A program made the translations under genes and the position numbers. Source: an uncultured Pelagibacteraceae bacterium (GTDB lineage Bacteria; Pseudomonadota; Alphaproteobacteria; Pelagibacterales; Pelagibacteraceae). Taken from it: a stretch of DNA of 64,000 nucleotides. Under the pieces are notes generated by a model, which saw only the letters and a program-made list of their open reading frames with translations, was not told the DNA's origin and ran no database searches. Positions 11,088 to 14,263 of the stretch are shown here, one piece after another; position 1 is the stretch's first letter, and each line of letters begins with the position of its first letter. The stretch spans positions 1 to 64,000 of the forward strand of contig CACFLJ010000002.1 in NCBI GenBank assembly GCA_902567045.1. Reading direction: 5' to 3'.

Positions 11088-12908
11088 CTATTCTACAGTA
11101 ACAGATTTTGCCAAATTTCTTGGTTTATCAATGTCATATCCTTTTTTTAAAGCTGAGTAAAAAGCTAGTTTTTGTAAAGGTATTGTCATTAAAAAAGGCA
11201 TTAAGTCTTCATCAAGACTATCAACTTCAATTTTTTCCCAAATATTCTCTGATGTTATTTCATCTTTATTTTTATTTGTAATCAACAAAACCTTAGCACC
11301 TCTTGCTATAACCTCCTGCATATTGGAGATTGTTTTTTTATAATGTTTATCTCTTGGGGCTAAGACAACAACGGGCATCCCCTCCTCAATTAATGCTAAA
11401 GGGCCATGTTTCATTTCTCCAGCTGGATATCCTTCGGCATGAACATAAGCCAACTCTTTAAGTTTTAATGCCCCCTCTAGTGCGATGGGAAATGAATAAC
11501 CTCTACCTAAAAACATTGATCCTTTGGCATCTGCAAAAACCTTAGCGATATTTAAGATCTTTTGGTCTACTTTAAGAGTTTTTTTAGCAGAATTAGATAA
11601 TTTTAGTAAATTTTTAAGCTTATATTTATATTCTTCTTTTGTAATAAAATTTTGGTCATGAGAAATTTTTAAAGATAGAATATACAAGACTAACATTTGA
11701 CCCATAAATGCTTTTGTAGATGCAACCCCTATTTCTTGACCACAATGAATTGGCAAAACTAAATCTGTATCTCTCGCTATTGAACTCTCTACGACATTCA
11801 CAACAGCACAAGTTTTCATTTTATTTTGTTTGCATAAATCCAAAGCTGCGTAGGTATCAGCTGTTTCACCTGACTGTGAAACAAAAATATAAAGACAATC
11901 TTTTTTAAATCTAACTTTTCGGTATCTAAATTCAGAAGCTATATCAACACTTACATCTAAGTTTGTACTTTGTTCCATCCAATACTTCGCAATTAAACAT
12001 GAGTGAAATGCTGTCCCACAACCAATGAGCATTACAGATTTTATAGAACTAGTTTTCCAAGGAAAGTTAAAAATATTAACTTGGTTATTATACTTATCAA
12101 TATACTCATTTATACAATCGCTAATGGTTGATGGTTGTTCATCAATTTCCTTTTCCATAAAATATTTATAATCACCTTTATTATAATCAATTTCATTTTT
12201 GGATAAATTCATCACTTTTTTATTTATATGAGATCCATCAATATCAAAAAATTCTATCTGATCTTTTTTTACAATACAAAATTCTCCATCCTCTAAATAA
12301 GAAATTTTATTAGTCATTGATTTTAAAGCATACGAGTCTGAACCGATATAATTCTCATTTGGACCATAGCCTACTGCAAGTGGAGAGCCTCTTTTTGCAC
12401 CAACCATTAAATCATTTTGATCTTTAAAAATAATTCCTAGAGCAAAACTTCCATGAAGTTTTTTTAGAACTTTAATTATAGTATTTTTTATTGAGTTTTT
12501 TTTTAAATAGTCTGTTACTAAGTGAGCGATTACCTCAGTATCTGTTTGTGATTTGAATACGTAACCTTTTTTTTCTAAAATCTTTTTTAATATTGTTGAA
12601 TTTTCAATAATTCCATTATGTACTACAGATACTTGTTCAGATGAATGTGGATGTGCATTAATTTTGCTGGGCTTACCATGTGTAGCCCATCTAACATGAC
12701 CAATGCCAATGTCTCCTTTAAGATTAAATTTAGAAATATCTTTTTCTAAAACATCAACTCTGCCTTCACATTTAACTTCATTTATATTTCCATTAACAAG
12801 TGTAGCTATGCCAGCGGAATCGTATCCTCTGTATTCAAGTTTCTTTAACGAGTTTACTATTCTACTTGAAACTTCTTTTGAACTTATTATTCCTATAATT
12901 CCACACAT
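11088..12908 (-). CDS. glmS: Glucosamine-6-phosphate synthase (isomerizing)
   Basis: Makes glucosamine 6-phosphate from fructose 6-phosphate and glutamine, the first step to UDP-GlcNAc. At 606 aa it is full length. The class II amidotransferase domain starts 'MCGIIGI' with nucleophile C2 and has 'RGYDSAGIA' and 'GHVRWATHG'. Two SIS sugar-isomerase domains follow, with 'SQSGETADTYAAL' and 'KELAYVHAEGYPAGEMKHGP'. The C-terminus 'PRNLAKSVTVE' is the family hallmark. It starts directly behind the stop of the GlmU-like gene, so the two form one UDP-GlcNAc operon. Confidence 0.97.
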   Translation of the reverse strand: MCGIIGIISSKEVSSRIVNSLKKLEYRGYDSAGIATLVNGNINEVKCEGRVDVLEKDISKFNLKGDIGIGHVRWATHGKPSKINAHPHSSEQVSVVHNGIIENSTILKKILEKKGYVFKSQTDTEVIAHLVTDYLKKNSIKNTIIKVLKKLHGSFALGIIFKDQNDLMVGAKRGSPLAVGYGPNENYIGSDSYALKSMTNKISYLEDGEFCIVKKDQIEFFDIDGSHINKKVMNLSKNEIDYNKGDYKYFMEKEIDEQPSTISDCINEYIDKYNNQVNIFNFPWKTSSIKSVMLIGCGTAFHSCLIAKYWMEQSTNLDVSVDIASEFRYRKVRFKKDCLYIFVSQSGETADTYAALDLCKQNKMKTCAVVNVVESSIARDTDLVLPIHCGQEIGVASTKAFMGQMLVLYILSLKISHDQNFITKEEYKYKLKNLLKLSNSAKKTLKVDQKILNIAKVFADAKGSMFLGRGYSFPIALEGALKLKELAYVHAEGYPAGEMKHGPLALIEEGMPVVVLAPRDKHYKKTISNMQEVIARGAKVLLITNKNKDEITSENIWEKIEVDSLDEDLMPFLMTIPLQKLAFYSALKKGYDIDKPRNLAKSVTVE

Positions 12909-13529
12909 TTACTTTTTTCTTTTATAATTTTTTTTTTCTATTTGATCGGCTCTAGTAAGTGCTAACGAGTTTTTTGAAACTTTTTTAGTTATAACCGATC
13001 CAGCTCCAATTATACTTTTTTTTTCAAGTTTAATTGGGGCAACTAGTGACGAATTAGAGCCTATAAAAACACCATCATCAATTATTGTATTATTTTTCTT
13101 AATGCCATCGTAATTACATGTAATTGTTCCTGCTCCAATATTAACTTTTTTTCCAATTTTAGTATCACCCACATATGATAGATGATTTATTTTTGAACTA
13201 TTTCCAACAATGCTTTTTTTTATTTCTACAAAATTTCCAATTTTTGATCCTGACTTAAGCACTGTTCCAGGCCTTAATCTCGCATATGGTCCAACATTTA
13301 CATTATTTTCAATTTTTACACCTTCTAAATGTGAGAAAGATAAAATTTTAACATTATCTCCTACTGATACGTTATCAGCAATTACCACATAAGGTTCTAT
13401 CGTTACATTTTTTCCAATTTTTGTGTTTTTAGAAAAAAAAACTGTATCAGGTGCAATCATTTTGACACCTTTTTTAAGAAATTTATTTCTTAACTTCAAT
13501 TGAATATTTATTAATTTTTTTTGTTTCAT
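12909..13529 (-). CDS. glmU: GlmU acetyltransferase domain, stand-alone
   Basis: A 206-aa protein that matches only the C-terminal half of bifunctional GlmU: the linker helix ('LRNKFLKKGVKMIAPDTV') and then a left-handed beta helix of hexapeptide repeats. This half acetylates glucosamine 1-phosphate. The catalytic site is intact: 'GPYARLRPGT', 'GNFVEIKKS', H116 in 'NHLSYVGD', and 'NIGAGTITCNYDG'. The N-terminal uridyltransferase domain is absent, and no frame upstream encodes it: the divergent gph gene begins only 69 nt away. The cut falls exactly at the domain boundary. It is coupled to glmS. Confidence 0.9.
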   Translation of the reverse strand: MKQKKLINIQLKLRNKFLKKGVKMIAPDTVFFSKNTKIGKNVTIEPYVVIADNVSVGDNVKILSFSHLEGVKIENNVNVGPYARLRPGTVLKSGSKIGNFVEIKKSIVGNSSKINHLSYVGDTKIGKKVNIGAGTITCNYDGIKKNNTIIDDGVFIGSNSSLVAPIKLEKKSIIGAGSVITKKVSKNSLALTRADQIEKKNYKRKK

Positions 13530-13597
13530 TTGATATTTTTATATATATGGGTATTAGTTTAATTAATTCACAATATATTTCTTAATAATACTTTTAA

Positions 13598-14263
13598 ATG
13601 ACACAAAAATTTACCATTCTTTTTGATCTAGATGGAACTTTGATTGATACAGCTCCAGATTTAATTCGTGCTCATAATCATGTTATGAAAAAATTTGGAT
13701 ATCCAACAAAAACTTTAGGTGAATTGAAAAATGCTGTTGGTAGAGGTGCAAAAGCAATGATGGCAAAAGCTAATGGTCAATGGAAATGGTTTGATGAAAA
13801 AATTCAAAACGAGATGACAAATGAATTTTTATCTTACTATGGAGAAAATATATTTTATGAAAGTAAGTTAATAAATGGAGTAAAGGAATTTTTAAATTGG
13901 TGTAAAAGAGAAAATATTTCTATGGCAGTATGCACTAATAAGACTGAACATTTAGCAGTTGATCTTTTAAAAAAAATTGGAATTTATGATTATTTTGAAT
14001 ATGTTGCTGGATACAATACTTTTGAATATTGTAAACCAGATCCAAGACATTTGACTACTATTATTAAAATTTTGGATGGTGACATAAATAAATCACTTAT
14101 GATTGGGGATAGTGAAACAGATGCAAACGCAGCTAAAGCCGCAGAAATTCCAATAATTTTGCTAAAATATGGATATACTGAAAAGAAATCTAGTGAAATA
14201 TATCATAATCACTTAGTTAAAGATTTCGTGGGTATTGAGAAAATTATAACTGAATATCTTTAA
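13598..14263 (+). CDS. gph: HAD-family phosphoglycolate phosphatase
   Basis: A 221-aa haloacid-dehalogenase phosphatase of the Gph type, which removes phosphate from 2-phosphoglycolate. Motif I is 'DLDGTLIDTAPDL' with nucleophile D10 and acid/base D12. Motif II is 'AVCTNKTEHLA', the lysine lies in 'YCKPDPRHL', and motif IV is 'MIGDSETDANAAK'. The helical cap sits between motifs I and II. HAD substrates are hard to predict, so another small phosphoester is possible. It is divergent from the glmU-like gene and followed 53 nt later by prpD. Confidence 0.87.
   Translation: MTQKFTILFDLDGTLIDTAPDLIRAHNHVMKKFGYPTKTLGELKNAVGRGAKAMMAKANGQWKWFDEKIQNEMTNEFLSYYGENIFYESKLINGVKEFLNWCKRENISMAVCTNKTEHLAVDLLKKIGIYDYFEYVAGYNTFEYCKPDPRHLTTIIKILDGDINKSLMIGDSETDANAAKAAEIPIILLKYGYTEKKSSEIYHNHLVKDFVGIEKIITEYL

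Follow-up and report, generated by a model that had tools for sequence, protein, structure and literature searches.

Both peptidoglycan and lipopolysaccharide are built from UDP-GlcNAc, and GlmU is regarded as an essential, conserved drug target. We wanted to find out how a bacterium could make UDP-GlcNAc with a glmU gene that encodes the acetyltransferase half only. The gene lies in the window, which here means the whole analysed stretch of 64,000 nucleotides (contig CACFLJ010000002.1, positions 1 to 64,000, assembly GCA_902567045.1) of an uncultured Pelagibacteraceae bacterium.

The short glmU gene

The locus in the window comprises the following features.

11088..12908, minus strand: glmS, glutamine--fructose-6-phosphate transaminase (606 aa, over cut-off; 0 bp gap downstream of glmU-C)
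12909..13529, minus strand: glmU-C, the GlmU acetyltransferase half, a left-handed beta-helix with a linker-helix remnant (206 aa; from the ORF, profile and structure alignment)
13530..13597, no strand: 68-bp intergenic gap between glmU-C and gph
13598..14263, plus strand: gph/mupP-like HAD phosphatase, divergent neighbour of glmU-C (name inferred; phosphoglycolate phosphatase models match below cut-off)

By sequence, the window gene encodes the entire acetyltransferase half of GlmU and sits in the old glmU locus. The protein aligned with the GlmU model NF010933 over positions 242-436 of 453 (E 6e-88, 294-295 bits; cut-off of 505 not reached) and with positions 239-450 of 452 of TIGR01173 (241 bits; cut-off of 367 not reached). 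Five Pfam matches were obtained, to hexapeptide-repeat and related models (Hexapep, 105.6 bits), and a nucleotidyltransferase domain was absent among them. Thirteen positions, which we take to be acetyltransferase-site or CoA-site residues in E. coli numbering, were compared with the solved chain 3fww. All 13 were identical (333, 351, 363, 366, 377, 380, 384, 386, 387, 392, 405, 423 and 440); overall, identity was 81/175 aligned positions. The ORF starts within the linker helix, and its last base directly precedes glmS. The initial annotation had described a gene that begins at the linker helix, lacks the uridyltransferase half, keeps a complete acetyltransferase site and is coupled to glmS, and these results bear out the description in each respect. 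The glmM gene, which it had named as one to look for, was present in the same genome (C5:32017-33324, 520 bits, over cut-off) and in 14/14 genomes searched. Since the acetyltransferase half is intact and both GlmS and GlmM are present, the route to GlcNAc-1-phosphate is, at sequence level, complete. The gph gene marks one flank of a conserved gph-glmU-glmS locus; in Caulobacter, MupP adjoins glmU by locus tag (CCNA_02390/02389, in an excerpt of PMC13046382).

Distribution of the short gene and loss of the N-terminal half

We analyzed 148 genomes of the order Pelagibacterales, namely 147 that were at least 90% complete and the genome of the window, and counted them from the listing of NF010933 matches. 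The label g1 stands for Pelagibacter, g5 and g6 for its sister genera, g2, g3 and g4 for further genera and f2 for the sister family. The C-terminal half alone was found in 116/148 genomes; 18 had full or near-full GlmU (17 scoring above the cut-off of the model, and G117 near-full), and 14, all drafts, had neither. C-half-only genomes made up 100/113 of g1 (including G045, whose contig ends inside the gene), 2/2 of g3, 13/13 of g5 and 1/2 of g6, and no full-length GlmU was among the listed matches in these four groups. The initial annotation had asked whether the short form is common to all SAR11; it is not, as full or near-full GlmU was kept in 2/2 g2, 4/4 g4 and 12/12 sampled f2 genomes. 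The C-half was the only form in 8 of the 11 single-contig genomes, and all 80 named loci fetched (80 kept of 488 found; Pelagibacteraceae or Pelagibacterales records) had a short ORF of at most 260 aa. Class-wide, 151/192 genomes were over the GlmU cut-off. We regard the loss of the N-terminal half as solid.

Other irregular forms of GlmU were also observed. A mirror image, a stand-alone uridyltransferase half that covers GlmU positions 3 or 4 to 245-260, was present in six genomes of 1.2-1.8 Mb from four other alphaproteobacterial families (L311-L316; G222, G315, G290, G184, G194 and G209), and none of them gave a match above 50 bits to a GlmU-like acetyltransferase half. No GlmU match better than E 1e-6 was found in G204, G303, G241 and G328, other Alphaproteobacteria of 0.9-1.5 Mb. 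In the g4 genome G117 (L121, single contig) glmU is broken by a frame change within the first ~75 residues, which leaves a 366-aa ORF; a sequence error is possible there, because in G117 a phosphomutase is also interrupted, by four in-frame stops.

The surroundings of the gene were constant. In 20/20 regions read, gph was divergent to glmU and glmS followed, whether glmU was short or long; among further regions, G132 had 2.1 kb between gph and glmU and was left out of the gph alignments. The gap upstream of glmU was 68-72 bp in 10/11 g1 regions (the eleventh, G011, has an over-extended gph frame), 61 bp in both g2 regions with their full-length glmU, 57-60 bp in 2/4 g4 regions (G028 and G060; of the others, one was over-extended and one had the broken gene), and 131 and 162 bp in two g3 regions. 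Because the 68-bp gap is close to those upstream of full-length glmU in g2 and g4, the deletion would have removed coding sequence and not the upstream region. On the model, the short genes start at 227-230 in 10/13 g5 genomes, at 228 in one g6 genome and at 237-243 in g1 (the cut G045 excepted). Gene order thus indicates an in-place deletion of the N-terminal half, with gph and glmS as the unchanged neighbours, and that no split occurred. The initial annotation had spoken of the splitting of a bifunctional enzyme, a view that the conserved gph-glmU-glmS locus contradicts; an in-place 5' deletion at a conserved locus amounts to gene economy, not un-fusion.

The loss probably happened twice, once in the ancestor of g1, g5 and g6 and once in g3. 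The ribosomal-region tree (29 proteins, 29 genomes, 5828 columns; a quick method with SH-aLRT support) placed f2 outside, g3 with g2 and g4, and g1 with g5 and g6, while in the tree of glmS, glmU-C and gph the family branched first into g3 and the rest. The N-domains of g2 and g4 grouped as sister to the f2 ones, apart from those of 34 other Alphaproteobacteria (support 99); the C-domains of the order nested together (support 90). On these two grounds, full-length GlmU appears to be ancestral.

Two other histories were considered. A single origin was rejected, as both trees need two changes. One loss followed by one regain in g2 and g4 is equally short by count, and it was rejected because the N-domain of these groups has that of f2 as its sister and occupies the same locus. 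A GalU tree put g3 beside the Pelagibacter clade, contrary to the ribosomal-region tree; as it contained one g3 sequence, it was given no weight.

Search for an enzyme that covers the missing step

Apart from the short gene, no full-length glmU was found elsewhere in the genome of the window by NF010933 profile search (1.18 Mb, 27 contigs, 86% complete). The next best match reached 34 bits and was CysE-like by sequence and neighbour, and the N-terminal matches, of 24 and 18 bits, were IspDF and KdsB, respectively. PF00483 detected ManC, a GalU gene that is cut by a contig end and adjoins ugd, and a MurU-like gene preceded by an AmgK-like kinase; PF12804, which was used on this genome only, added IspDF and KdsB. 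An archaeal-type replacement was not seen, since the TIGR03992 matches in this genome were GalU, ManC, MurU and IspDF. A stand-alone GlmU N-domain was not found in eight single-contig relatives with the short gene (G003, G005, G009, G011, G013, G015, G020 and G025), and NF010933 matches across the 148 genomes, listed down to 53 bits, included no separate GlmU-N gene in the short lineages. Among the listed matches, 16 frames of 190-210 aa, which is the size of MobA/MocA, matched N-domain positions 3-144 with 53-65 bits. Fourteen of these were in C-half-only genomes, one in G060, which has full GlmU, and one in G069, which has neither form; no frame of 190-210 aa was present among the PF00483 matches of G011 and G020. 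PF00483 and the GlmU model matched in all 14 control genomes. PF01704 (eukaryote-type pyrophosphorylase) matched in 0/14 genomes, but it matched in no control either, so its absence carries no weight.

The initial annotation had argued that the uridyltransferase must be either encoded by a separate gene or replaced. The second part stands, and for the first no gene came to light: neither the stand-alone N-domain nor the archaeal-type nucleotidyltransferase that it had suggested was found among the listed matches of the short lineages and in the own genome, respectively. A full-length glmU, which it had named as evidence to the contrary, was found neither in the 86% complete genome of the window nor in the eight single-contig relatives. 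The step to UDP-GlcNAc is thus predicted to be carried out without any GlmU domain in this genome. In the literature searched, which left subscription papers mostly outside, we found no published account of the short GlmU in SAR11.

The single-contig genomes G011 and G020, both with short GlmU, had only three PF00483 matches each, which were assigned to ManC by size and to GalU and MurU by gene place. As candidates for the stand-in, we propose GalU in first place and MurU in second.

GalU and its rivals

We looked for galU by its place in 17 regions. Eleven gave galU, three f2 regions had none, and three contigs (G060, G038 and C15 of the own genome) end before it. The gene was located 14-15.4 kb from rplB in 11/11 single-contig genomes, and galU was followed by ugd in 11/11 further loci examined. 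The GalU proteins of g1, g5 and g6 (16 complete sequences and the own partial one) carried GTG in place of GLG, WG in place of YG and E-H-ITD in place of E-Q-ITD, so that the three pocket sites read T/W/H in 17/17, whereas they read L/Y/Q in 6/6 GalUs of g2, g3 and g4 and in five solved GalUs. Twelve GalUs of other bacteria, mostly environmental and picked by hand out of 40 entries shown for 109 matching plasmid records, had 11 L and 1 S, 12 Y and 12 Q. The switches of the clade, Leu109Thr, Tyr168Trp, Gln228His and Lys21Ser, fall on the same stem as the loss of the GlmU N-domain, and the link between GalU and GlmU therefore rests on a single event. The catalytic core (R15, K25, D132, E189, K190 and D254) was invariant in 16/16 clade GalUs. 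The best family of the G011 protein was TIGR01099, at 240.8 bits and below the cut-off of 326.8; a canonical g2 ortholog was also below it, at 269.1 bits.

We compared the frequency of such switches with that in other proteins, leaving G000 out of the counts. The reference set consisted of 18 other GalUs, six from g2, g3 and g4 and 12 from other bacteria. Three of the 39 columns invariant in this set were switched in all 16 clade rows (K21S, Y168W and Q228H), and at conservation of at least 17/18 five of 48 columns were switched, L72Y and L109T being added. The same count gave 0/431 in MurU, AmgK, GlmS, Gph, GlmU-C and TsaE together and 14/1158 in the ribosomal region. With g2, g3 and g4 as the only outgroup, switches were found in 9/107 columns of GalU, 1/64 of MurU, 1/82 of AmgK, none of the other four proteins and 47/1692 of the ribosomal region. 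The p-values serve as a guide only, because outgroups differ in depth among the proteins (one-sided Fisher, strict set: p = 0.0005 against the six proteins, p = 0.016 against the ribosomal region; wider set: p = 8e-6 and p = 0.0006, respectively; g2/g3/g4 outgroup, two-sided: p = 3e-7 against the six proteins, p = 0.005 against the ribosomal region, p = 0.09 against MurU alone).

At column 109, Thr was also present in 6/6 SAR11 GlmU N-domains aligned. GlmU has Tyr at columns 168 and 228, and Trp168 and His228 of the clade are unlike it. In RmlA, the substitutions L89T, E162D, Y177F, T201A and W224H raise tolerance for sugar-1-phosphates, and Gly146 contacts O2, O3 and O4 of the sugar (excerpt of a review, PMC9415975). 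In our reading, Gly146 would be placed beside the Tyr/Trp column of GalU. Column 109 presumably corresponds to RmlA L89, as we read it from the RmlA sequence and from four RmlA-like SAR11 proteins, which had L or I there. A Pelagibacter glycolipid enzyme takes UDP-glucose, UDP-galactose and UDP-glucuronate (excerpt of PMC8231724), and the old function of GalU is therefore likely to be still needed.

We propose that GlmS, GlmM and GlmU-C would make GlcNAc-1-phosphate as usual, and that the GalU ortholog of g1, g5 and g6 would perform the last step (GlcNAc-1-P + UTP -> UDP-GlcNAc). The clade GalU would have kept its core and its coupling to ugd while its sugar pocket changed (Leu109Thr as in GlmU, Tyr168Trp, Gln228His and also Lys21Ser), and the altered pocket could let it serve both UDP-glucose and UDP-GlcNAc. 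The separate N-domain loss in g3 would have used another stand-in. We give this combination, an in-place deletion of the GlmU N-half with GalU as UDP-GlcNAc maker in g1, g5 and g6 and a separate stand-in in g3, a nearly even chance. Somewhat more tentatively, and a little below even, we suggest that a few pocket substitutions re-tuned GalU to a dual UDP-glucose/UDP-GlcNAc pyrophosphorylase, which would have allowed the half-deletion of GlmU, and that a second SAR11 lineage took another route. Several observations speak against a role of GalU. Genus g3 lost the N-domain, yet the single GalU recovered from it (G009) has the canonical residue at each of the three pocket sites. Only Thr109 matches GlmU, and GalU must still feed Ugd. 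The ribosomal region shows switches as well (the strict comparison above), and the excess over MurU alone is weak. In G009 a 250-aa sugar nucleotidyltransferase (L387) belongs to a gene island with sugar-epimerase-like and glycosyltransferase-like members, and it is a possible candidate for the stand-in of g3.

MurU is the MurNAc-1-phosphate uridylyltransferase of a peptidoglycan-recycling shunt, and its natural substrate is GlcNAc-1-phosphate with a lactyl group added. It might also uridylylate GlcNAc-1-phosphate and so replace the GlmU N-domain, in both lineages or in g3 alone, which we consider unlikely. A single enzyme would then account for both losses, MurU was matched in 143/148 genomes, including all 11 single-contig ones (four of the 143 only at E about 1e-8 to 1e-10), and it was first identified by its likeness to the transferase domain of GlmU (excerpt of PMC5371407). 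However, MurU is equally present where GlmU is whole, and since AnmK was found in 141/148 genomes (the own draft not among them), MurU has a recycling job in most of them. Its speed relative to the ribosomal region was the same in short and full lineages (ratio 3.8 in g1 and 3.7 in g2 and g4), with neither a slow-down nor the tightening expected of a newly essential enzyme, and the 11 single-contig genomes (4.4 and 3.3) gave no slow-down either. It evolves as fast as its neighbour AmgK. One MurU switch, from Ser to Pro immediately ahead of the catalytic Asp motif, was fixed on the stem of g1, g5 and g6, but 0/28 deep-conserved columns were switched. Substitutions common to both short lineages numbered 0 in MurU, AmgK, TsaE, GlmS, Gph and GlmU-C; the ribosomal region had 46 in 5466 columns, and at nine of these f2 shared the state of the full-GlmU lineages. 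We put MurU in second place because neither shared substitutions nor a slow-down were found. In gene order, murU came after tsaE-amgK in 29/31 loci (the G038 contig ends after amgK), and amgK adjoined murU in 30/31 loci read; the exception in both counts is murU of the g3 genome G009 (L206:1477-3107), which has neither gene beside it and adjoins an argF-like gene, so MurU may have been freed there. Within g1, the evolutionary rate of MurU and AmgK is close to four times that of the ribosomal-region proteins, and the own MurU (L003, C1:174652-175335) is 81-91% alike to eight others and at most 54% to the rest.

UDP-GlcNAc could also be made by a non-homologous or highly divergent protein that belongs to none of the families searched. 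The lack of an obvious stand-in in g3 would fit it, as would the narrow reach of PF12804 and the failure of PF01704 in the controls. Related enzymes should have been seen, since PF00483 and the GlmU model matched all 14 controls, and the streamlined G011 and G020 offer few candidates; such a protein seems to us more doubtful still than MurU. That the short gene is an artefact of assembly or annotation, or that its N-domain lies in the unassembled 14% of the own genome, is hardly credible. The 27 contigs and the incompleteness of this genome would allow it, but the C-half-only form recurs in the 116 genomes, the eight single-contig ones included, with no full-length GlmU beside it; neighbours are constant, spacing is constant within g1, and all 80 named loci are short.

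Pelagibacter is among the commonest cells in the sea. A clade without the GlmU uridyltransferase would show that cells can do without this half once the step is taken over by another enzyme, and the proposed role of GalU gives a named candidate with named residues. Pipelines that call the short gene bifunctional GlmU would give metabolic models of Pelagibacter a reaction without a gene.

In comparison with bifunctional GlmU (TIGR01173, PRK14353/NF010933), the window C-half has all 13 checked site residues and, like that of the full-length SAR11 relatives, its locus is adjacent to glmS, but the gene is without the whole N-terminal uridyltransferase half. Archaeal ST0452-type and alternative bacterial GlmU (TIGR03992 and TIGR03991) likewise combine a nucleotidyltransferase with a beta-helix acetyltransferase to make UDP-GlcNAc; these are, however, fused and belong to other lineages, and the window protein scored 99 and 40 bits against them, far under the cut-offs. 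MurU of the AmgK-MurU shunt (NF045761) is the best family for the 228-aa nucleotidyltransferase that follows the AmgK-like kinase in the own genome, which at 91 bits against a cut-off of 250 is placed by best match and gene order only. The clade GalU keeps TIGR01099 as its best family, the conserved core and the coupling to ugd, and differs from other members at otherwise conserved sites, where Leu, Tyr, Gln and Lys are replaced by Thr, Trp, His and Ser, respectively.
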